Below are positions 1,490 to 43,050 of a stretch of 64,000 bases of DNA, piece by piece; the first letter of the stretch is position 1; each line of letters starts with the position of its first letter. The position numbers and the translations under genes are program-made. Origin of the DNA: Erysipelotrichaceae bacterium (lineage in GTDB: Bacteria > Bacillota_I > Bacilli_A > Erysipelotrichales > Erysipelotrichaceae); contig JAFRLM010000021.1 in assembly GCA_017431225.1 (NCBI GenBank), positions 1 to 64,000 on the forward strand, read 5' to 3'. The notes beneath the pieces are model-generated. The model saw nothing but the letters and a program-made list of their open reading frames with translations, was not told the DNA's origin and did no database searches.

Positions 1490-1507
1490 CAAGAGGAGGT
1501 GTTCAAG

Positions 1508-2251
1508 GTGAAGAAATTCACAACGAACGACGAGATCGAATCCCTCTGTGAAGCCATGATCAAAGACTTCTTTAAGAGCAGACACTACACCAATGTGCTC
1601 TGCGTCGACATTGAAGGCTTTGTCGAGGAATACCTGGGGATTCCTATCGTCTATGAGACCTTTGCCGAAGCAGATCCCGGGAGGATCGGGTTTCTGGCAG
1701 ATGGGAAACGGCCGTTATCGGTCCGAAGAGAAGGTATGACCCAGCAGGTGGTTTTCCCGCAGAGAACAGCGGTGATCGAACGATGTCTGCTGAGCCCCAA
1801 GGAAAGCGCCAGGAAGCGGTTTACCATCGCTCATGAAGGCGCACATGATGTCATCAACCGGCATATTCCCGCGCAGGCAAGTCCTGCAGCCGCATTCCAC
1901 AGCGAGTACGATCCTGAGATGACGTATTCCAGGGAGATGCTGAAGGAGATGCTGTCGGTCAATGAGAGCTTTACCAACAGAGCTGCCGCGTGCTTCCTGA
2001 TGCCGGGCTTTCTGGTTGAAAGAGCCCTGAAGCGCTACAACGGCTCAAAGAAGGTAATCATTTATGAAGGCGGCGTCCTTGCCCAGGATCAAAAGTTTCT
2101 GATCCAGAGGATGGCTGATGCCATGGGCGTATCCTACAGCGCCTTCCGGATCCGTCTGATGGAGCTGGATCAGTACGATGTCCGCCCTGTAGAGGAATAT
2201 CTGCATACGGGCCTTCGATATGGAGGTGAGCAGGATGCAGGGAGTTATTGA
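1508..2251 (+). CDS. ImmA/IrrE-type metallopeptidase
   Basis: 247 aa from the GTG at 1508. An earlier in-frame GTG at 1499 touches the AGGAGG ribosome site, so the later codon fits better. The zinc-protease motif HEGAH is at residues 109-113 (FTIAHEGAHDVINRH), typical of ImmA/IrrE (COG2856) enzymes. These cleave repressors in response to DNA damage or cell-cell signals, as ImmA does in ICEBs1. A family partner would be an XRE-like repressor; candidates here are the LexA-like protein or the XRE protein at 6204-6491. Its 3' end overlaps the next gene, so translation is coupled. Confidence 0.85.
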   Translation: MKKFTTNDEIESLCEAMIKDFFKSRHYTNVLCVDIEGFVEEYLGIPIVYETFAEADPGRIGFLADGKRPLSVRREGMTQQVVFPQRTAVIERCLLSPKESARKRFTIAHEGAHDVINRHIPAQASPAAAFHSEYDPEMTYSREMLKEMLSVNESFTNRAAACFLMPGFLVERALKRYNGSKKVIIYEGGVLAQDQKFLIQRMADAMGVSYSAFRIRLMELDQYDVRPVEEYLHTGLRYGGEQDAGSY

Positions 2252-2540
2252 ACGGCATGTAACAGCAGGACCGGAGCTTCAGGAGAAGCTTGACCAGTCC
2301 AGGAAGCTTGCTGAGCAGCAGACAGCCAGGGAGATCCGCTGTCCGAGCTGTGGTTTCTACCTTCTGGACGTTTACGGGCAGGGTCATTACCTGATCCGCG
2401 TCAAATGCCGGAAGTGCAAGTTCGACGAGACCATTGATACGGCACTGTTCCGGACGATGAAGCGGCACCGGAGGTACTGGCACCTGATAAACAGGAAGCG
2501 AAGGATGAGAGCATATGGAAAGGACTTACATTTGTATTGA
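2235..2540 (+). CDS. Zinc-ribbon protein (Com-like), function unknown
   Basis: 101 aa. The ATG at 2235 is served by GGAGGTGA at 2222-2229 and overlaps the ImmA gene by 17 bases. It also overlaps the polymerase gene by 26 bases. CPSCGFYL and CRKCKF pairs in the middle suggest a zinc ribbon like phage Com proteins. The tail is very basic (KRHRRYWHLINRKRRMRA), consistent with nucleic-acid binding. The tight overlap on both sides argues for coordinated production with the polymerase. Confidence 0.7.
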   Translation: MQGVIERHVTAGPELQEKLDQSRKLAEQQTAREIRCPSCGFYLLDVYGQGHYLIRVKCRKCKFDETIDTALFRTMKRHRRYWHLINRKRRMRAYGKDLHLY

Positions 2541-3912
2541 CCTGAAGTCCTACTACGCTTCCGTTGAATGTGTTCACCGTGGACTTGATCCGCTGAAGGC
2601 GAACCTGCTGGTGGCGGACGAGTCCCGGTCCGATCAGACGATCTGCCTGGCGGTTTCTCCATCGCTTAAGGCGATGGGTGTGCCGGGCAGACCGAGGCTC
2701 TTCGAAGCAAAGCAGAAGATCCGGGAGTATGAGGCGCTACATCATACGAGAGTGGAGTACATCATTGCTGTTCCAAGGATGGCAGAGTATGAACGGATCT
2801 CCGCGAAGATCTATTCCATCTATCTGAGGTATGTTGCCAAGGAAGACATCCACGTCTATTCCATCGATGAGTGCTTCATTGACGTGACGGGTTACCTTCA
2901 CGCCTACAGGAAAGACGCTGCAGCCTCCGGCACCAATCCGGCACATTTCATGGCAATCACCATGATCCGGGATGTCCTGAAGGAAACCGGCATCACTGCT
3001 ACTGTCGGGATCGGGACAAACCTGTATCTGGCGAAGGTCGCAATGGATATCGTGGCGAAGAAACGGCCGGCAGATAAGGATGGCGTGAGGATCGCGGAGC
3101 TCAACGAGGATTCCTACAAGTTCCTGCTCTGGGATCATAAGCCGCTGACGGACTTCTGGCAGATCGGTCCCGGAAAGGCCAGGCGGCTGCAGTCCGCTTC
3201 TATGTTCACCATGGGAGATATTGCCCAGAGAACGCAGTGGGACGAGGAGTACTTCTACAAAACCTTCGGCATCGACGGCGAGATCCTGATCGATCATGCC
3301 TGGGGCATCGAGCCCGTTACCATGCAGGACATTAAATCTTACAGAAGTGAAGGGCACAGCCTTTCAAACGGGCAGGTGCTTCCGAGACCCTATAAGTACC
3401 AGGAAGCAAAGCTGGTCTGTAAAGAGATGATCGAAGTCCTCTGTACGGACATGTTCTCAAAGAACCTGGTCACGAAATGCTGCAGCTGGTGGGTATCCTA
3501 TGATTATAAGAGCCTGGATGCATGCCCCTCTTACAATGGACCGCTGAGCATCGACTTCTACGGAAGGCTGCATCCCAAACACAGCAACGGAACGATCCGG
3601 CTTCAGACGCTGACCAACAACTTAAGTATCATCACAGAACCGCTGGTCAGACAGTTCGATGATAAAACAGATCACCGCCTTCTTTATCGCAGGCTGGGTG
3701 TCTGTGCAAACGATGTAACCGAAGACATGGGAGTTTTTCAGATGAACATGTTCGTGGATTATGAGGCTCTGGAAAGAGACCGCCGTCTGCAGGGTGCTAT
3801 GCTGGAGGTTCGGCGGAAATTCGGAGCTAACGCCATCTTTAAGGGTATGAACCTGATAGAAGGCGCAACGACTTTGGAGCGCAACCGGCAGATCGGAGGG
3901 CATAAGGCGTAA
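2515..3912 (+). CDS. Y-family DNA polymerase (UmuC/UvrX/DinB superfamily)
   Basis: 465-aa translesion polymerase predicted to copy past damaged template during the SOS response. Motif I DLKSYYASVEC has metal ligand Asp9. Motif III SIDECFIDVT supplies Asp118 and Glu119. A fingers/thumb helix-hairpin-helix region follows (FWQIGPGKARRLQ), then a little-finger domain. The SYYASVE pattern (Lys-Ser where DinB has Asn-Cys-Phe) places it nearer to Gram-positive UvrX/UmuC-like enzymes than to DinB. I see no clear beta-clamp motif at the C-terminus, but I could not search. It shares the SOS-box promoter upstream and is followed by its usual partner YolD. Confidence 0.92.
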   Translation: MERTYICIDLKSYYASVECVHRGLDPLKANLLVADESRSDQTICLAVSPSLKAMGVPGRPRLFEAKQKIREYEALHHTRVEYIIAVPRMAEYERISAKIYSIYLRYVAKEDIHVYSIDECFIDVTGYLHAYRKDAAASGTNPAHFMAITMIRDVLKETGITATVGIGTNLYLAKVAMDIVAKKRPADKDGVRIAELNEDSYKFLLWDHKPLTDFWQIGPGKARRLQSASMFTMGDIAQRTQWDEEYFYKTFGIDGEILIDHAWGIEPVTMQDIKSYRSEGHSLSNGQVLPRPYKYQEAKLVCKEMIEVLCTDMFSKNLVTKCCSWWVSYDYKSLDACPSYNGPLSIDFYGRLHPKHSNGTIRLQTLTNNLSIITEPLVRQFDDKTDHRLLYRRLGVCANDVTEDMGVFQMNMFVDYEALERDRRLQGAMLEVRRKFGANAIFKGMNLIEGATTLERNRQIGGHKA

Positions 3913-3920
3913 GTACTACT

Positions 3921-3941
3921 CTCCTGCCGGAACGCAGGAGG
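3921..3941 (+). promoter_or_regulatory. Hairpin covering the ribosome-binding site of the YolD-like gene
   Basis: CTCCTGC (3921-3927) pairs perfectly with GCAGGAG (3934-3940), and the second arm is most of the GCAGGAGG Shine-Dalgarno for the ATG at 3950. The structure should lower YolD translation until melted or until ribosomes from the polymerase ORF, which ends 9 bases upstream, disturb it. Confidence 0.55.
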
Positions 3942-3949
3942 TGTATACG

Positions 3950-4477
3950 ATGAGTGCAATAGGCGTAATGGCGATGCCGGCAGATTTCCGGTATCGGGAG
4001 GTTTTCCTCAAAGGAAAGCCCAGGCACGACCAATATGATCCCTTCAGGATCCGCCACCCGAGAATGAACCGGGGTCACCGGGCGAAGATCTTTGCCCCGT
4101 TCGATGCCCTGAAAGGCTTCAATGAAGCGGTCTCTGCCAAGGAGGTCCTGTATGAGAGCAGGATCGAACTTAGCCCTGAGGATGCTGCGGAGCTTGACAG
4201 AAGGCTCACTATCCTTCACAACCTGACCTTTAACAGCCGGATGGCCAGAGCCAACCGGGTTCAGGTATCAGTGATTTATTACCAGCCGTGCCTGGATCTG
4301 AATCATGATGATTATGGGCTGAGAGGCCAGTATCAAACCATCACCGGTATCTGCTGGAATGTAGACGCCGAGGTAAACCGGACGATTTTGATTGACAAGA
4401 TGAAGATTTCTCTGGACAATGTCCTGAGAATCGAAGGCCCTGAAGGTCTTTTTCAGGAAGACCGGGTGTTGATTTAA
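3950..4477 (+). CDS. YolD-like protein
   Basis: 175 aa. The signature HRAKIFAPFDALKGFNEAV (residues 43-61) is the conserved core of the YolD family, whose members lie next to Y-family polymerases in Bacillota and their phages. The role is not firmly known; it is thought to be a UmuD-like accessory. The ATG at 3950 is 8 bases from GCAGGAGG. This copy is longer than typical YolD (about 110 aa), with an extra C-terminal region after residue 100. Confidence 0.8.
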   Translation: MSAIGVMAMPADFRYREVFLKGKPRHDQYDPFRIRHPRMNRGHRAKIFAPFDALKGFNEAVSAKEVLYESRIELSPEDAAELDRRLTILHNLTFNSRMARANRVQVSVIYYQPCLDLNHDDYGLRGQYQTITGICWNVDAEVNRTILIDKMKISLDNVLRIEGPEGLFQEDRVLI

Positions 4478-4491
4478 GAAAGGAAACAGCC

Positions 4492-5127
4492 ATGGCATTT
4501 GATTTCAAGAAAGAATATAAAGAGTTCTACACGCCGAAGAACAAGCCGTCTATTGTAACGGTCCCGCCCATGAACTATATCGCAGTTCGAGGCCAGGGAG
4601 ATCCAAACACTGAGGACGGTGAATATAAGGCAGCGATCGGTATGTTATATGGGATCGCGTTTACCATCAAAATGAGCAAAATGGGTGACCACAGAATCGA
4701 TGGATATTTTGACTATGTGGTTCCTCCCTTGGAAGGCTTCTGGTGGCAGGAAGGCGTCATCGGTGTCGATTATTCACACAAAGAGGCGTTCAAGTGGATC
4801 TCTGTTATCCGGCTGCCGGACTTCGTGACGAAAGCCGACTTTGACTGGGCAGTAGAGGAAGCTACCCGAAAGAAGAAAGCTGATTTCTCAAAGGTTGAAT
4901 TCTTCCATTATGAAGAAGGCCTGTGTGTACAGTGCATGCACCTGGGACCCTATGATGATGAGCCCATGACTGTGGAGTTGATGCATAAGTACATGGAGGA
5001 GCAGGGTTACGAGCTGGATATCACAGCTGAACGTATGCATCATGAGATCTATCTTTCCGATGCCCGAAAAGTAGCGCCGGACAAGCTAAAGACAGTAATT
5101 CGTCATCCGATCCAGAGAAAGGTGTAA
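4492..5127 (+). CDS. GyrI-like small-molecule-binding domain protein
   Basis: 211 aa, stand-alone GyrI-like (SbmC/AraC effector-binding, COG4832-type) domain. It has the characteristic openings MNYIAVRGQGDPN and the repeat FHYEEGLCVQCMHLGPYDDE, in which the LGPYDDEP stretch is typical of the family. Members bind or hydrolyse small cationic or cyclic compounds and some protect gyrase. It starts 14 bases after YolD with GAAAGGAAAC as ribosome site and is probably in the same SOS transcript. The substrate cannot be told. Confidence 0.8.
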   Translation: MAFDFKKEYKEFYTPKNKPSIVTVPPMNYIAVRGQGDPNTEDGEYKAAIGMLYGIAFTIKMSKMGDHRIDGYFDYVVPPLEGFWWQEGVIGVDYSHKEAFKWISVIRLPDFVTKADFDWAVEEATRKKKADFSKVEFFHYEEGLCVQCMHLGPYDDEPMTVELMHKYMEEQGYELDITAERMHHEIYLSDARKVAPDKLKTVIRHPIQRKV

Positions 5128-5130
5128 ACT

Positions 5131-5445
5131 ATGGCAACGAGTAAAGAGTATCTGAGTTTTGTTTTGGATCAGCTTTCAAACCTACCTGAGATATCTTCCA
5201 GGGCAATGATGGGCGAGTATATTCTCTATTTTCGCGGGAAAGTCATCGGAGGAATCTATGATGATCGTCTCCTCCTGAAACCGACGAAAGTAGCTTCTGA
5301 GATTATACCGGATGCAGAGAGGGAAATCCCATATGAAGGAGCGAAAGAAATGCTCCTCGTTGATGTGGATGATAAGGAGTTGCTGAGGCGCTTGATCGAG
5401 GCTATGTATCCGGAACTTCCTGAGCCGGGAAAACGAAAGAGATAA
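5131..5445 (+). CDS. TfoX/Sxy N-terminal domain protein
   Basis: 104 aa. SSRAMMGEYILYFRGKVIGG and the following LLLKPT match the TfoX N-terminal fold. In Gammaproteobacteria TfoX/Sxy activates competence with CRP. Small one-domain versions in Bacillota have no proven role. It begins three bases after the GyrI-like gene and belongs to the same operon. Confidence 0.8.
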   Translation: MATSKEYLSFVLDQLSNLPEISSRAMMGEYILYFRGKVIGGIYDDRLLLKPTKVASEIIPDAEREIPYEGAKEMLLVDVDDKELLRRLIEAMYPELPEPGKRKR

Positions 5446-5449
5446 GACG

Positions 5450-5959
5450 ATGAGACTTTTTATAGCGATACAGCTGAATGAAGCGATGAGACAGCTGGCA
5501 ACGGCTGTGCAGGTTACATTTCGTCAGTTTGGGGTACGAGGTAATTACACACCAACAGAGAATCTTCACCTGACACTGGCCTTTATCGGAGAATACAGCG
5601 GCCCGGATGAAGTCCTGGATGCCTTGGAGAATATATCCTTCGCTCCTTTTACCATCACCATGGACAAGGTCGGAAGCTTTGATGAACTGTGGTGGACCGG
5701 ATTTGAAGAGAACGAGGAGCTGGAAGCCCTGGTCAGGAAGCTTCGAAGAGCTTTAGCCGATGCGGGGATCCCCTTTGATCGTAAGAAGTTCAAGCCTCAT
5801 GTGACGATCCTGCGGAAGCCGGATTACACCAAGGGAAGAATCTCACATATGAGTATCGAACCTGCAGGCATGGTGGTGGAACGTATTTCCCTGATGCAAT
5901 CCACCAGAGGAAAGAACGGTATGATTTATACCGAGCTGGGATCTGTTTCGGCACAGTAA
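5450..5959 (+). CDS. thpR: RNA 2',3'-cyclic phosphodiesterase (2H family)
   Basis: 169 aa. Two HxT motifs of the 2H phosphoesterase fold are present: HLTL at residues 40-43 and HVTI at 117-120. Length and motif spacing match ThpR (formerly LigT). The reaction would be opening of 2',3'-cyclic phosphates on RNA ends to 2'-phosphates. It is the last gene of the SOS cassette, four bases after the TfoX-like gene, and is followed by a terminator about 90 bases on. Why an RNA-end enzyme rides in a damage cassette is not evident. Confidence 0.85.
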   Translation: MRLFIAIQLNEAMRQLATAVQVTFRQFGVRGNYTPTENLHLTLAFIGEYSGPDEVLDALENISFAPFTITMDKVGSFDELWWTGFEENEELEALVRKLRRALADAGIPFDRKKFKPHVTILRKPDYTKGRISHMSIEPAGMVVERISLMQSTRGKNGMIYTELGSVSAQ

Positions 5960-7974: not shown

Positions 7975-8460
7975 ATGGCCCTACGAGGGCTACCAAGTGG
8001 CCCTGCCAGGCCCACGGCAAACGTCGATTTCTTCTCTAAAATAGGACTCGTAACAACGGAGTTGTTACAGCAGAAAGCAATCAAAGCACCTTGACAACTG
8101 AATAGACATTCATCAGGTACGAACCTGTGATGAGGAGCCACATCAGCAGTGAACGCGAAGACGATCGAATGATCAGAGCGGCAGCTGGCCTGTAAGAGCC
8201 GGACAGTCCCCGGATTAAGGCGAAGATCCATCACAGCATAATGAGACTTCCGCCGCGAGGCGGCTCTGTGAGAACCACAGAGGGGTAAAACGGCCCATGG
8301 ATCCGGTAAGCTGCCGGACATCTGATGATTTCCCTGACAGGCAAAGAAGCCTGCGTTTCCGGGGGCGTCGAGGACAAATACGGAAAGATCATACACGATA
8401 TTATCGTCCGATACGGACGTTATTGGTGGAGTAGGCCGAGTGCCTGCTCCGTACATATTC
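7975..8460 (+). ncRNA. Candidate structured RNA before the DGQH/MazF-like genes
   Basis: No convincing gene, but a dense series of stems. GCCCT/AGGGC is at 7978-7990. GTAACAAC/GTTGTTAC is at 8050-8068. TCATCAGGT pairs with ACCTG+ATGA, with a two-base bulge, at 8110-8133. CTGGC pairs with GCCGG near 8184-8202. CCGCC-GCGA-GGCGG with a GNRA tetraloop is at 8250-8263, and CTCTGTG/CACAGAG directly abuts it at 8264-8282. GATCCAT (8225-8231) pairs with ATGGATC (8297-8303) and encloses those two hairpins. CAGGC/GCCTG is at 8338-8353, CGTCCG/CGGACG at 8405-8419, and a 9-bp GGAGTAGGC/GCCTGCTCC at 8428-8450. Pairs were read by eye. The boundaries and the promoter are not clear (a TTGACA is at 8091). It could be a long 5' leader or a free RNA. 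Confidence 0.6.
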
Positions 8461-8479: not shown

Positions 8480-9265
8480 ATGACAGAAGATATCGTAAGA
8501 CCGTTTGAAGAGAAAATGGTCAGCAGCGCTCTTCTGGAGATTCCCCGCAATACATATCAGAGGAACCTGAATCCGGAGAGAGTGAAACGGATTTCTCATT
8601 CCTTTGATGAGCGGATCGCCAATGAGCCGAAGGTCAGTTTAAGAGACGGCCGTTACATCGTATTCGATGGCCAGCATGTGATCGCAGCCAGAGTGGACAA
8701 GAACAGCGGTGAGGAGCTTCCCATTCTCTGTAAGGTTTACTCCGGGCTCAGTGACCAGGAAGAAGCTTCGCTTTTCGCAAACCAGACCGGATTCGGTGGT
8801 CCGCCCAGCATCGGGATGAAGCTGAGAGCTTTGGTGTTTGCCGGAGATCCAGAAGCTGTGAACTTCCTGAAAGCGACTGAAGAGATCGGCCTCCGCATCG
8901 ACTACGGCCAGCACAAAGGAAGAAAGCGCGTCGCCTGTATTGCAGCAGCGCTGACAGAGTTCCGAAAGCTTGGCCCTGTTAAATACCAGGAAGCCATGAA
9001 AATGATACTGGAGGGCTGGGACGGAGATCCCGATTCTCTGAGGGCAGAAACAGTAACCGGCGTCTGCCGGTTCGTGGACCTCTACAGCGGAGAATACGAT
9101 CCGAAGCGGATGGTCAAGCGCCTCCGCACTGTGGATCCCTTGAAGATCTACCGCGACGGCAAAGCCATGGGAGACAATCTTCCTGGATATAAGAAGTATC
9201 TCTACCAAGTGCTTCTCATCTACAACGGAGCCAGCAAGAAAGCTGCGCTGCCGATGAAATTCTAA
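8480..9265 (+). CDS. DGQH-motif (ParB/Srx-like) protein
   Basis: 261 aa. The N-terminal third reads like the ParB/sulfiredoxin fold: an arginine-rich entry (YQRNLNPERVKRI), then GRYIVFDGQHVIAAR with DGQH at residues 63-66, then LSDQEEASLFANQTG. The DGQH pattern resembles the DGQHR domain known from DndB-like proteins, but the final Arg is Val here. The C-terminal half is helical, with no DNA-binding motif I can name. The ATG at 8480 follows CGAAGGAGG. The gene sits directly after the candidate structured RNA and 13 bases before a MazF-like RNase, where a toxin would normally have its antitoxin. Confidence 0.65.
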   Translation: MTEDIVRPFEEKMVSSALLEIPRNTYQRNLNPERVKRISHSFDERIANEPKVSLRDGRYIVFDGQHVIAARVDKNSGEELPILCKVYSGLSDQEEASLFANQTGFGGPPSIGMKLRALVFAGDPEAVNFLKATEEIGLRIDYGQHKGRKRVACIAAALTEFRKLGPVKYQEAMKMILEGWDGDPDSLRAETVTGVCRFVDLYSGEYDPKRMVKRLRTVDPLKIYRDGKAMGDNLPGYKKYLYQVLLIYNGASKKAALPMKF

Positions 9266-9278
9266 GGAGGCGGAACGG

Positions 9279-9692
9279 ATGCAATACAAAGATAAGCTCT
9301 ATCGCCAGCCTGGAACGGTGAAGAACTGGATCTGGAGACGCGGCGATATTTACCTGGCAAACCTGAATCCCTTTAAAGGCTGCGAGCAAGGGGGAACACG
9401 TCCGGTTTTGGTCCTCTCGAACGATATTGGCAATTTTTTCAGTCCGTTGATCACCATTGCTCCGATTACTTCCCATCTGAAGAAGCTGGACCTGCCGACT
9501 CACGTTCTTCTTAAGGACGTCAGAGGCTTGACGACAGATTCCGTCGTCTGCCTTGAACAGATTAAGGGAATCGACAAGCTGAGAGTTCTGAAATACCTCG
9601 GCAAGATTAGCAAAGAGCAGATGGAAGAAGTCGAGGAAGCAGCAATGGAGAGCCTGGGGATGCCTATTCCGGAGTGCGTAGATGCACCATAA
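9279..9692 (+). CDS. MazF/PemK-family endoribonuclease (toxin-like)
   Basis: 137 aa. WRRGDIYLANLNP (residues 19-31), then GGTRPVLVLSND (38-49) and a central PLITIAPITS strand are the hallmarks of the MazF/PemK beta-barrel. The Arg in RRGDIY and the TxPxTS-type strand line the active site in family members. An N-terminal extension of about 18 residues precedes the barrel. The ribosome site AAGGAGG overlaps the stop of the DGQH gene, so the two are co-translated. No MazE- or AbrB-like antitoxin is encoded nearby. Confidence 0.85.
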   Translation: MQYKDKLYRQPGTVKNWIWRRGDIYLANLNPFKGCEQGGTRPVLVLSNDIGNFFSPLITIAPITSHLKKLDLPTHVLLKDVRGLTTDSVVCLEQIKGIDKLRVLKYLGKISKEQMEEVEEAAMESLGMPIPECVDAP

Positions 9693-9745: not shown

Positions 9746-9773
9746 AATACATAAACCGGAGGTGATAATCAAC

Positions 9774-10013
9774 ATGGAAAAACTTCTTACGAGAAAAGAG
9801 GCTGCAAGGCTGCTTGGTATCAGCATTGCTACTCTGGATCAGGCAAGAGCAAACGGACTGGTCTCCTTTGTCCAGTACTGCGAGAACGGCAGCGTGTATT
9901 TTACGGAGCTGAGTCTTCAGGAATACGTTGCCCGGTCGACTCACAAAGCAAAACCGAAAGAGATCAATACCGGAACCACCTTCAGAAGTCCGAGAAGTGC
10001 AGTCAGAAGGTGA
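9774..10013 (+). CDS. Excisionase-like helix-turn-helix protein
   Basis: 79 aa. LLTRKEAARLLGISIATLDQ (residues 4-23) is a MerR/Xis-type winged helix as in excisionase-family DNA-binding domains. The tail is basic. The ATG at 9774 follows GGAGGTGAT; an upstream GTG lies inside that site. Its place directly before the integrases supports a role in excision or in control of integration. Confidence 0.75.
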   Translation: MEKLLTRKEAARLLGISIATLDQARANGLVSFVQYCENGSVYFTELSLQEYVARSTHKAKPKEINTGTTFRSPRSAVRR

Positions 10014-10084: not shown

Positions 10085-11308
10085 ATGCCAAGAAAAAGAA
10101 TCCCGAATTTCACATTCAATTCTGTGACGATTAACGGGCATGAGTATTATAAAGCGTATGTCATGAATGCGGATCACAAGCTGGTTATCGTCTACGGAAA
10201 AACTCTGGAGGAACTTTGCCAGAAGTATGATGAGGCGGAGAATCGCACCGAAAATGATATGTTCAACAGGCGGTCTCCCACGGTGAAAGAATACTGTGAG
10301 AAGTGGCTCTTGATGCAGTCCGCAAATGTCAGAGCCACAACGCTGATCGACTATACATCCAAGGTGAACCGGCACATCATTAAGCCGCTTGGTCACATGA
10401 AAATGGCGGATGTCACAGCGGATGATATAAAGATGGCTCTTATCCCGGTCTCAAAGAAATCTGCATCAGTCTACAAATCCGTGAACATCATACTGAAGTG
10501 CATCTTCAATTCAGCGGAGGACAGCAAGATCATAACCTATAACCCCACGAGATTCCTCTCTGCCAAAGGCGGAGGAGTCCCGCAGAAGGATCGAGAGTCA
10601 CTGACAGACGAGCAGGCAGAACTCCTGCTGAATACGATTCGGGACCTGCCGCCCTATGTCTTCGTGATGCTCGGTTTGTATGCCGGGCTTCGCCGGGAAG
10701 AAATTCTGGCCTTGAAATGGGACTGTGTAGTGCTGGATACGAAAGCACCTTATGTAATGGTCAGACGTGCCTGGCATACGGAAAACAACCGGCCTGTTAT
10801 CCTGACTGAACTGAAGACAAGGGCTGCACGAAGGGATATTGCTATTCCTGACTGCCTGGCAGAATGCCTTAAAGAGGCAAGAGAAAAATCAACGTCAGAG
10901 TATGTTGTAGCGAATAAGGATGGCGGCCCTCTGACTTACACAGAATTCAGGAGCCTTTGGCGCTTTATCGTTGTAAGGACCGCAAAGCCAAGGATCGCAA
11001 AGAAAAAGGTGGGTGGAAAGTATGTGAAGTACATGCTGTATCCGAAGCTTGGAGAGATGGCCAGAAACAATGGAAAGGTTCAGTATGTTCTGGACTTTGA
11101 TGTGACGCCGCATCAGCTTCGGCATACTTATATCACCAACCTGATCGCTGCCGGAGTGGATCCCAAGACGGTGCAGTATCTTGCTGGCCACGAAAGCAGC
11201 AAGATCACCATGGACATCTATGCAAAGGTAAAGTACAACCGGCCCGAAGAAGTCGCAAAAGCACTGGATGGAGCCTTTGCTCTTTGGAATGCACAAGGCA
11301 ATCAGTAA
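10085..11308 (+). CDS. Tyrosine recombinase/integrase 1
   Basis: 407 aa, Tn916-like layout: an N-terminal arm-binding region (GHEYYKAYVMN...), a SAM-like core-binding domain (VKEYCEKWLLMQSANVRA), then the catalytic domain. Visible catalytic residues are the first Arg in AGLRREEI (near residue 200), His343 and Arg346 in HQLRH, His369 in LAGHE and Tyr379 in MDIYAK. All are intact, so it should be active in cutting and joining attachment sites. It starts 6 bases after AAGGAGG. It is closely similar to the next gene throughout the catalytic half. Confidence 0.92.
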   Translation: MPRKRIPNFTFNSVTINGHEYYKAYVMNADHKLVIVYGKTLEELCQKYDEAENRTENDMFNRRSPTVKEYCEKWLLMQSANVRATTLIDYTSKVNRHIIKPLGHMKMADVTADDIKMALIPVSKKSASVYKSVNIILKCIFNSAEDSKIITYNPTRFLSAKGGGVPQKDRESLTDEQAELLLNTIRDLPPYVFVMLGLYAGLRREEILALKWDCVVLDTKAPYVMVRRAWHTENNRPVILTELKTRAARRDIAIPDCLAECLKEAREKSTSEYVVANKDGGPLTYTEFRSLWRFIVVRTAKPRIAKKKVGGKYVKYMLYPKLGEMARNNGKVQYVLDFDVTPHQLRHTYITNLIAAGVDPKTVQYLAGHESSKITMDIYAKVKYNRPEEVAKALDGAFALWNAQGNQ

Positions 11309-11373
11309 AGCATAAACACCGAAAGATCAGGGGCGGGGGTCGTAAGATCCTCACCCTTTTTCCATACATAAGG

Positions 11374-11387
11374 GGTGACATCCTTGA
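11374..11387 (+). repeat. Leader repeat upstream of integrase 2
   Basis: Identical to the 14-base GGTGACATCCTTGA at 10009-10022. Both copies are followed by ATCTGAGA and then a GGAGG ribosome site. Confidence 0.65.
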
Positions 11388-11447
11388 AGGAACCCATTCT
11401 ATCTGAGACGATAGCATCGCCAAATCAAACCGAAGGAGGATATAATC

Positions 11448-12674
11448 ATGGCAAAAAAAGAAGAACAGCCCAGGATTCCGAACTGGTCTATCCATGTGAA
11501 GAAAGGAATCCCCTATTTCAGGATCCAAACTTATGATGCAGACGGAAAAAGATTTGACATCTACGGGAAGACCGAACAGGAAGTAAAGCAGAAGTATCTT
11601 CGAGCTCAGGAGGAGATCGAAGCAGCAAAATTCCGCAAGCTCAATCCTACGGTCAGAGAATACAGTGAGAAGTGGCTGGAGATGCATTCGGCGGTCATAC
11701 AGCCAAGCACATTGAAGGGCTATACCCTCGCAGTCAAGAATTACATAGTCAAGCCGCTTGGCGATATGTATATGTCGGATGTGACTGCAGATGATGTGAA
11801 GCTGGCTATGGTGGCAGTTTCGAAAAGATCAAGCGCCACATATAGCCTGGTCAACATGCTTTTCAAGAGCATCTTTTACTCTGCCCAGTACAGTAATCTG
11901 ATCCGGGATAATCCGACGGAAAAAATCAATGCGAAAGGCGGAATACCCAGGAAGGAGAAGGAAGCTTTGACTGACGCCCAGGCGAAGCTGCTTCTGGATA
12001 CGATCCGTGATCTGCCTCCCTACGTCTTTGTAATGATCGGACTGTATGCCGGATTGCGTCGTGAAGAAATATTAGGCCTTCAGTGGGACTGCGTCTTTCT
12101 GGACGTCCCGACGCCGTATATTGCTGTCCGCAGAGCCTGGCACACTGATCATAACCGTCCGGTTGTTACCAGAGAACTGAAGACTCCGGCAGCCAAGCGG
12201 GATATTCCTATTCCGCAGCCGCTGGTTGACTGCCTGAAAGAAGAAAAAGCAAAGTCGATTTCAGATTATGTCATTGCCGACAAAAATGGAGATCCGCTGT
12301 CCTACTCACAGTTCAACCGGATCTGGAACTATATCAGGGTTCGTGGAACCCAGGAAAGGACTCTCTACAAATACGTGAACGGACAGGCAATCCAGAAGAA
12401 GTTCAAGCCCGAGCTTGGGCAAAAGTGCGTGAACCGTGAAGAGATCGTCTATTGTCTGGATTTCAAAGTCACGCCTCATCAGCTGCGGCACACATATATT
12501 ACCAACCTGATCCACGCCGGTGTTGATCCCAAGACGGTCCAGTACCTGGCCGGTCATGAAAACAGCAAGGTGACTATGGACATCTACGCAAAGGCCAAGT
12601 ATAATAGGCCCGAAGAGCTTTCCGATGTCGTGAATGATGCCCTGATATCACAGACCGACAGCGATGAATGCTGA
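11448..12674 (+). CDS. Tyrosine recombinase/integrase 2 (paralog of integrase 1)
   Basis: 408 aa with the same domain order as integrase 1 and long identical stretches such as TIRDLPPYVFVM and LYAGLRREEIL. The catalytic set is complete: Arg in AGLRREEI, His344, Arg347, His370 and Tyr380. The N-terminal regions differ more (PNWSIHVKKGIPYFRIQTYD), so the two may recognise different arm sites. GAAGGAGG precedes the ATG at 11448. It is the last gene of the element, next to the putative attachment region. Confidence 0.92.
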   Translation: MAKKEEQPRIPNWSIHVKKGIPYFRIQTYDADGKRFDIYGKTEQEVKQKYLRAQEEIEAAKFRKLNPTVREYSEKWLEMHSAVIQPSTLKGYTLAVKNYIVKPLGDMYMSDVTADDVKLAMVAVSKRSSATYSLVNMLFKSIFYSAQYSNLIRDNPTEKINAKGGIPRKEKEALTDAQAKLLLDTIRDLPPYVFVMIGLYAGLRREEILGLQWDCVFLDVPTPYIAVRRAWHTDHNRPVVTRELKTPAAKRDIPIPQPLVDCLKEEKAKSISDYVIADKNGDPLSYSQFNRIWNYIRVRGTQERTLYKYVNGQAIQKKFKPELGQKCVNREEIVYCLDFKVTPHQLRHTYITNLIHAGVDPKTVQYLAGHENSKVTMDIYAKAKYNRPEELSDVVNDALISQTDSDEC

Positions 12675-12877
12675 TACGCTTCTCAGAATGAAGAGAAATG
12701 AAGGGTAAGTTCAAGTTCGGCCCGTTAGTTAATGACTGAGGGAACAAACTGAGGGAACCTCAAAAAGCAAGTAAATACAAGGGTTCCAGGTGACAAGTTG
12801 GCCGAGTACGGTCTCAAAAAAGCGAGAAGAGCTCCGCAGTTCTCCAAGCGTTAAGCGATTTTATCAATGCTGCAAAA
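12675..12877. other. Probable attachment-end region of the mobile element
   Basis: About 200 bases without a gene between the last integrase and the first chromosomal-type gene. The repeat pair at 12735-12758 is the only clear structure. I see no tRNA or protein-gene 3' end that would identify the target site. The other end of the element is probably left of the window. Confidence 0.4.
12735..12758 (+). repeat. Tandem ACTGAGGGAAC repeat, possible integrase arm sites
   Basis: ACTGAGGGAAC is present at 12735-12745 and 12748-12758, a 13-bp step. Closely spaced direct repeats beside an integrase gene are typical of arm-type (DR-2-like) sites bound by the integrase N-terminal domain. Confidence 0.5.
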
Positions 12878-42943: not shown

Positions 42944-43016
42944 CCCGTATACGGCTACTGGCGGCAGTGGAAATGACCACATGAAACCGTATATGATTGC
43001 CGACCGCCTGGGCAAC
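42944..43016 (+). ncRNA. ZTP (pfl) riboswitch
   Basis: Stem P1 is CGTATACGG (42946-42954) with CCGTATATG (42987-42995). The joining segment CTACTGGCGG and the inner stem GTGG/CCAC (42967-42970 and 42977-42980) match the first half of the pfl consensus. CCGCCTGGGCAA (43004-43015) is the almost invariant second half. The family senses ZTP/AICAR-phosphate, which builds up when 10-formyl-tetrahydrofolate is short, and turns genes on. It precedes a purine operon containing AICAR transformylase and fhs, exactly the genes that relieve this state. Confidence 0.88.
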
Positions 43017-43050
43017 TGAGATCCTGTTTTTACAGCACTTGGAGGTGTCT

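Follow-up and report, generated by a model that had tools for sequence, protein, structure and literature searches.

A leader RNA of about 240 nt in an Erysipelotrichaceae genome probably belongs with canT of Tn916. Sequence comparison and analogy with that published homologue lead us to regard it, with fairly high confidence, as a canT-like processive antiterminator leader that heads an excision/integration module, with a boxA probably assisting. The leader lies on the forward strand of the window, i.e. the whole 64,000-nt stretch analysed (GenBank assembly GCA_017431225.1, contig JAFRLM010000021.1, positions 1 to 64,000). Its family, boxA, conserved fold, strand and place before an xis-like gene and int were established here by sequence; antitermination activity has been demonstrated for canT, whereas the window copy is known from sequence, its own activity being proposed from the Tn916 homologue.

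Loci and helix tests

The loci considered are the matches listed by the searches (at most 30 per search), with stricter filters in searches over more than 40 genomes. Genome loci number 48, namely L001 (the window's own) to L030 and L059 to L076; L068 and L076, short loci at contig edges, have no core position, which leaves 46. There are 28 viral loci, three of which (L039, L046, L057) are too short upstream, so that 25 were counted; L041 and L050, likely chance pattern matches, were kept in the viral count.

For the comparison of leaders, the 60 loci with a boxA of at least 12/15 matches, boxA thus being the entry condition, were reduced with an identity cutoff of 85% to 36 non-redundant sequences, one of them from the window. 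To assess a helix, one strand from each sequence was paired first with the other strand of that same sequence (own) and then with the corresponding strands of every other sequence (swapped). The test of P0 and of the closing helix described below used 34 of the 36 sequences and later helix tests up to 36, with the core ends of L044 and L051 set by hand in the later ones; according to the alignment, the scan position of the L067 boxA is probably too far upstream.

The pemK motif as the core of a longer leader

Three Rfam matches in the window exceed their cutoffs: a tRNA, a ZTP riboswitch and the pemK RNA motif. The last extends over the whole model above the curated gathering cutoff, and shares with Rfam pemK the AUAAUG start, three hairpins and the AUG-R end. 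The motif reportedly stems from the 2017 work of Weinberg et al. Its entry (RF02913) is of type Cis-reg and, as displayed, gives no further function. Searches detected the family in 16 of 60 related genomes and, across the phylum, in 29 of 392 sampled genomes; none of 14 control genomes gave a match. The window copy is an ordinary, further member of a known RNA family. The Rfam model covers 61 positions only, and the boxA, P0, P1, P1b and P5 of the window fall outside it. From the alignment, the pemK motif is the 3' core of a leader of about 240 nt that is predicted to comprise boxA, a domain closed by P0, P1, the pemK hairpins and P5. The features of this region are as follows.

8050-8068, + strand: hairpin just upstream of boxA, 8-bp stem GTAACAAC/GTTGTTAC
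8089-8103, + strand: boxA-like site CCTTGACAACTGAAT, exact match to CYTTGAMAACTGAAT
8110-8118, + strand: 5' strand of P0, which closes the domain; pairs with 8320-8328
8125-8132, + strand: 5' strand of P1, CTGTGATG; pairs with 8229-8236, about 35 nt after the boxA start
8152-8162, + strand: internal block AACGCGAAGAC, consensus TACGCCATGAC; invariant or nearly invariant alignment columns
8175-8181, + strand: internal block AGAGCGG, consensus GAGCGA; invariant or nearly invariant columns
8229-8236, + strand: 3' strand of P1, CATCACAG; ends 1 nt before the pemK core
8238-8300, + strand: pemK RNA motif (RF02913), beginning AUAAUGAGAC; 50.7 bits, cutoff 34.8, model positions 1-61 of 61
8302-8318, + strand: P5 hairpin TCCGGTA/TGCCGGA
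8320-8328, + strand: 3' strand of P0, directly after P5
8405-8419, + strand: weak terminator-like hairpin that precedes the first gene downstream of the RNA; -7.3 kcal/mol, with a short T tail

The ZMP/ZTP riboswitch lies far from this leader, at 42944-43020 (54.8 bits).

Another Rfam family, dinG RNA (RF03082), has in common with the window RNA the string AAUGA.ACUUCCGC and the hairpins that follow. The window scored 26.0 bits against a dinG cutoff of 46.9; the 60 relatives gave no dinG match, in a search that returned no signal anywhere and thus does not show absence. The 26-bit core match suggests that the pemK and dinG families may be related.

A first-pass annotation of this region had described, at 8225-8303, a three-way junction made of two abutting hairpins, the first with a GNRA loop, within a closing helix. 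The pairings are present in the sequence: CCGCC-GCGA-GGCGG at 8250-8263 and CTCTGTG-AGAAC-CACAGAG at 8264-8282 touch at 8263/8264, and GATCCAT (8225-8231) is complementary to ATGGATC (8297-8303). The proposed comparison with dinucleotide shuffles also came out in its favour, the 79 nt folding at -32.3 kcal/mol against -19.13 (sd 2.72) for 200 shuffles, none of which was as good (z -4.84). The junction has to be redrawn, as a third hairpin (8283-8286/8293-8296) makes it four-way if the closing helix is counted. The three hairpins are those of the Rfam pemK model, and the closing helix is outside it. The GCGA loop is likewise real in the window and not a feature of the family, in which the first-hairpin loop ranges from a few to more than 40 nt.

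The closing helix does not recur among the relatives. With the window included (34 sequences), own strands formed 3.82 bp and swapped strands 3.47 (p = 0.0145); without it (35 other sequences), the values were 3.63 and 3.43 (p = 0.10), and in the 34 sequences tested the full 7 bp was reached in the window only. It also clashes with the conserved P1 and P5, with which it shares 8229-8231 and 8302-8303. A closed 79-nt junction acting as the functional unit by itself would be in keeping with the good fold and with a pair probability of 0.5-0.76 for the helix in its 232-nt context; given the missing conservation and the clash, it was rejected and seems to us very improbable. The 232-nt domain folds at -80.1 kcal/mol with the closing helix and at -80.0 in the conserved fold without it, so that energy alone could not tell the two apart. 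The closing helix is private to the window sequence, and the alignment puts the conserved closure in P0 plus P1, the strands of P0 being predicted 107 nt upstream and 17 nt downstream of it.

P0 gave 9.68 bp with own and 5.80 bp with swapped partners, reaching at least 6 bp in all 34 sequences, and none of 20,000 permutations was as good (p 5e-5); a control region farther downstream gave 5.74 and 5.52 bp. For P1, whose 3' strand was sought in the 9 nt that precede the core, the values were 7.64 and 5.44 bp (n = 36; 0/20,000 permutations as good, p 5e-5), with two control regions free of signal, and for P5 they were 5.53 and 4.75 bp (n = 36, p 1e-4). The same test supported P1a, P1b and P2; P3 was weak (p 0.0065) and P4 unsupported (p 0.21), these two perhaps gaining little owing to little variation. 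Single-sequence and automated folding returned less: RNAalifold on a sequence-only MAFFT alignment gave six pairs only, the predicted pair probability of P1 in the window is only 0.06-0.07, and P1b has only 4 bp there.

The pairs of P0 also reveal which strand folds. They include 21 G.U against one A.C, compared with 289 against 354 among swapped partners (Fisher p 9e-7, in a test whose swapped pairs are not independent), an excess that identifies the + strand as the folding strand. Energy is of little help, since the complement of the 232-nt domain folds about as well (z -2.16, 5/200 shuffles as good) as the domain (z -2.31, 3/200), and the strand is therefore settled by the comparative data. 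The Rfam match, the conserved and compensated helices and the strand-specific G.U pairs bear out the earlier description of a folded RNA domain and speak against inverted operator sites; operator sites or hairpins in DNA were rejected on the G.U strand bias.

A boxA-like site shared with the rRNA operons of a relative

Comparison of the flanks of relatives revealed a constant motif, CYTTGAMAACTGAAT, about 140-220 nt upstream of the core. Among the matches listed, at least 12 of its 15 positions are matched in 42 of the 46 genome loci. As controls, 1.9% of shuffled flanks and 5 of 966 segments from elsewhere in these genome loci reach that level. For the viral loci listed, the count is 15 of 25. 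The consensus was derived from some of the loci later counted, and the comparison with 23S genes is therefore more independent. In the complete genome of a relative of the same family (G009), all eight exact sites precede either a 23S gene or a pemK match: each of the three 23S rRNA genes has one at a distance of 132 nt, within the 16S-23S spacer, and five lie 139-145 nt upstream of pemK matches, the other five of its ten pemK matches having no exact site. Across five genomes scanned, 14 exact sites occurred in four (ten before pemK, three before 23S and one at a contig end). Since the same site precedes the host's 23S genes, we take the motif before pemK to be the host rRNA boxA; the search for 23S genes found none in the assembly that contains the window.

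The contig-end site belongs to the window's own genome. It lies on the minus strand within bases 1-40 of another contig, where a second exact boxA leads into ATCATTCATCAG, identical to the window's 5' strand of P0, just before the contig stops. This locus, with no rRNA match in its first 2500 bases, probably represents another copy of the leader in truncated form.

In E. coli, boxA is established as the binding site of NusB-S10, according to the available text of PMC10931766, and by analogy NusB/S10 would probably bind the window boxA as well. The likeness with rrn and lambda nut lies in the same 15-nt boxA-type site, present in the 16S-23S spacer of the relative. We know of no pemK fold in rrn or nut. 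A stem of at least six Watson-Crick pairs occurs upstream of boxA in 24 of 36 sequences, against 30% of shuffles; the hairpin at 8050-8068 is presumably placed like boxB of rRNA leaders, a weak likeness.

Two strong pemK loci, L005 (67.5 bits) and L062 (61.4 bits), keep the upstream blocks and have no recognisable boxA. In two compact variants, L040 (2529-2554, - strand) and L075, the whole P1 domain is missing and boxA is retained, at most 40 nt from the pemK core.

Correspondence with canT of Tn916

One related leader (L008) runs into a Tn916-type excisionase gene and shares 95.6% identity over 401 nt with ten plasmid records, some of which carry the annotation of a Tn916 excisionase. A pemK match of 55.0 bits was found in the Tn916-type region of two plasmids, L077 (1703-1803) and L078. 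In L077, the stop of an orf8 homologue is at 1420 and the xis start at 1881. We read these genes as the orf8 and xis of the canT paper, a reading with which the sequence agrees in that the 83-codon orf5 is in place and ATA stands at +283. The same stretch contains, at 254-483, a match to the Rfam cis-regulator SQ2397 (229.8 bits), which adjoins an HTH regulator gene and precedes a sigma-factor gene.

According to the main text of PMC11658703 (Wirachman and Grossman 2024), canT is a cis-acting, orientation-specific processive antiterminator located between +126 and +577 after the orf8 stop, which needs no other Tn916 gene to act on terminators, whether of Tn916 or foreign, and is required for conjugation; canT mutants excise normally and do not express the genes past the terminator. 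A 162-bp deletion (+229 to +390) is inactive, and a 3-nt substitution, ATA to TGC, starts at +283; in the 452-bp reporter, each of these alleles retains less than 5% of wild-type activity (PMC11658703). The substitution was designed for a tyrosine codon of the putative orf5 on the other strand (PMC11658703), so that its site was not chosen with the motif in mind.

On the coordinates given in that text, the active 452-bp fragment maps to L077 1546-1997, the deletion (1649-1810) removes the whole pemK match (+283 to +383), and the substitution (1703-1705) replaces the ATA that forms the first three nucleotides of the match, which are invariant or nearly invariant in the alignment. The Tn916 RNA carries the remaining elements between +124 and +408: boxA at +124 to +138, P0 (12 bp) at +142 to +408, P1 (9 bp), P1b and P5. 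The leader thus coincides with canT. The words pemK, Rfam, boxA and NusB are absent from the main text of PMC11658703.

The window RNA and L077 went through one alignment and the same helix tests, and have the pemK match, boxA, P0, P1 and P5 in common, in the same order. Since the window leader had no blastn match at E 0.01 among plasmids or phages, the likeness between the window and canT is one of motif and fold. A second leader known for processive antitermination, conAn of pLS20 (the ConAn1 protein and conAn2 RNA), would resemble the window RNA in its function at the head of an operon, in that case for conjugation, as far as the available text describes it. At an E-value limit of 1, the stretch 1900-4700 of pLS20 matches neither pemK nor any other Rfam family, so that by this test conAn is a different RNA.

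How much boxA contributes may be asked of canT itself. The active 452-bp fragment, which begins at +126, starts 2 nt inside the 15-nt boxA match on the published coordinates, and the need for an intact boxA is thus unproven. Antitermination could accordingly depend on the fold alone, as in put or EAR RNA, with boxA ancestral or incidental, a variant of the canT-like reading and not exclusive of it. Besides the truncated boxA of the active fragment, the existence of L005 and L062 and the direct contact with RNA polymerase suspected by Wirachman and Grossman (PMC11658703) are in its favour. Against it are the retention of boxA in 42 of the 46 genome loci among the matches listed and its persistence near the core in L040 and L075 despite the loss of the P1 domain. 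We consider fold-only antitermination possible and lean against it. Other published fragments complicate the picture: the substitution changed activity little when placed in a 400-bp canT fragment, a 291-nt fragment with the affected region in it had no activity, and the authors state that canT activity is hard to infer from predicted structures (PMC11658703).

The canT data also bear on a DNA-level role, such as a single-strand origin or an accessory site for integration or a recombinase, with the hairpins forming in DNA. Such a role would fit the frequent neighbourhood of recombination genes and the comparable folding of the complement. The G.U bias of P0 is confined to one strand, and canT acts in cis and depends on its orientation, its mutants excising normally yet failing in expression past the terminator (PMC11658703), which leaves this explanation hardly probable at all.

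The element and the genes behind the leader

The genes that follow the leader in the window, and the right end of the element, are listed below.

8480-9265, + strand: DUF6551 (ParB-like fold) gene; PF20188 E 3.7e-99, phrog_1033 ParB-like partition protein 4.2e-9
9279-9692, + strand: PemK/MazF-type toxin gene; PF02452 E 2.8e-30
9762-10013, + strand: HTH_17 excisionase-like gene; PF12728 24.4 bits, narrowly below its cutoff of 27
10085-11308, + strand: tyrosine integrase 1; PF00589 2.8e-22
11448-12674, + strand: tyrosine integrase 2; PF00589 9.4e-22
12805-12854, + strand: right junction, within the 3' end of rpsI; from 12805-12807 onward the sequence matches the chromosomes of two relatives in the same genus

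The excisionase-like gene matches phrog_66 (excisionase/transcriptional regulator, 3.3e-6), but also phrog_57 (terminase small subunit, 2.8e-6). Phage fusions of DUF6551 bound CTP or ATP, according to the available text of PMC12704722. The two integrases (10085-12674) are tandem and related, with repeats of 71-81% identity spaced by 1366-1369 nt. The target gene encodes 30S ribosomal protein S9, as identified in the relative L083, and the S9 tail has this one copy only in the assembly (at most three mismatches). The element is most likely inserted in rpsI with its right end at 12.7-12.8 kb; as the second junction is missing, its left end would lie off the contig, and the element in the window may be incomplete. 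The stretch 1499-5956 encodes an IrrE-like peptidase, an impB/mucB-type (UmuC-like) polymerase, and GyrI-like, TfoX-N and LigT-type proteins, possibly cargo of the element. In the 480 nt that precede boxA, no sequence resembling a sigma-70 promoter was listed.

The window RNA (8089-8328) thus has the same place as canT, before xis-int at the right end of the element. The window element differs from Tn916 in having DUF6551 and pemK between the RNA and the xis-like gene, and in its two integrases. A sigma-factor gene, present in the Tn916-type L077, was not found among the scanned upstream genes of the window element.

The name of the family and its Cis-reg type in Rfam invite the view that the RNA simply regulates the pemK toxin gene in cis, either as a riboswitch-like leader or as the RNA target of the toxin. 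In the window, pemK is the second gene downstream. The first gene 3' of the RNA was examined in 69 of the 75 loci with a core position, six having no gene; with a crude ribosome-site rule for the choice of gene, and near-identical copies not thinned, DUF6870 came first in 14, Tn916-Xis in 11, PemK in nine and a serine recombinase in nine, the remaining first genes being found once each or a few times. Most loci thus have other first genes than pemK, and the Tn916 homologue antiterminates in a reporter without any other Tn916 gene (PMC11658703). Toxin-specific regulation was rejected as the general function on the first-gene counts, and we hold it to be unlikely. With the toxin a minority partner, the common thread among the loci is the excision/integration module.

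A terminator-like hairpin follows the core at 25-255 nt in 11 of 36 loci against 1.35 expected, such hairpins being equally frequent on the reverse strand (10/36). Five loci whose first gene is pemK (L006, L007, L010, L013, L026) have one ahead of the toxin gene, where a terminator would keep the toxin off except for polymerases that carry the RNA.

Proposed mechanism and significance

Under the canT-like reading, transcription would start upstream of 8089 on the + strand, so that boxA would emerge first and the P0 domain would fold next. The folded RNA would stay with the polymerase that made it and modify it, boxA probably recruiting host NusB/S10 to the polymerase in the manner of rRNA operons, and the P0/P1/pemK fold supplying the element-specific contact. 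The modified polymerase could then pass terminators, leading to expression of DUF6551-pemK-xis-int, and after excision it may read across the circle junction into the other end of the element.

A wider generalisation, which we put forward tentatively and rate just short of an even chance, is that all true pemK RNAs are boxA-led processive antiterminators through which mobile elements of Bacillota borrow the antitermination factors of the host rRNA operon. The arrangement would be nut-like, with a structured RNA in place of the phage N protein, and terminators would gate genes for toxin, partition, excision and transfer.

The pemK RNA was so far found as a catalogued motif without a mechanism, and the link with canT would supply a function, proposed from the published homologue. 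In turn, it would give canT a conserved structure with defined helices and explain why a 3-nt change kills it, as the change strikes the start of the pemK motif. No published link between pemK and canT was found, in a search outside which most subscription literature lies, so that the connection may have been noticed earlier. That pemK would be the core of canT, with a boxA in front, is in our view the valuable result, and through it the coupling of gene expression to excision in such elements becomes directly testable.
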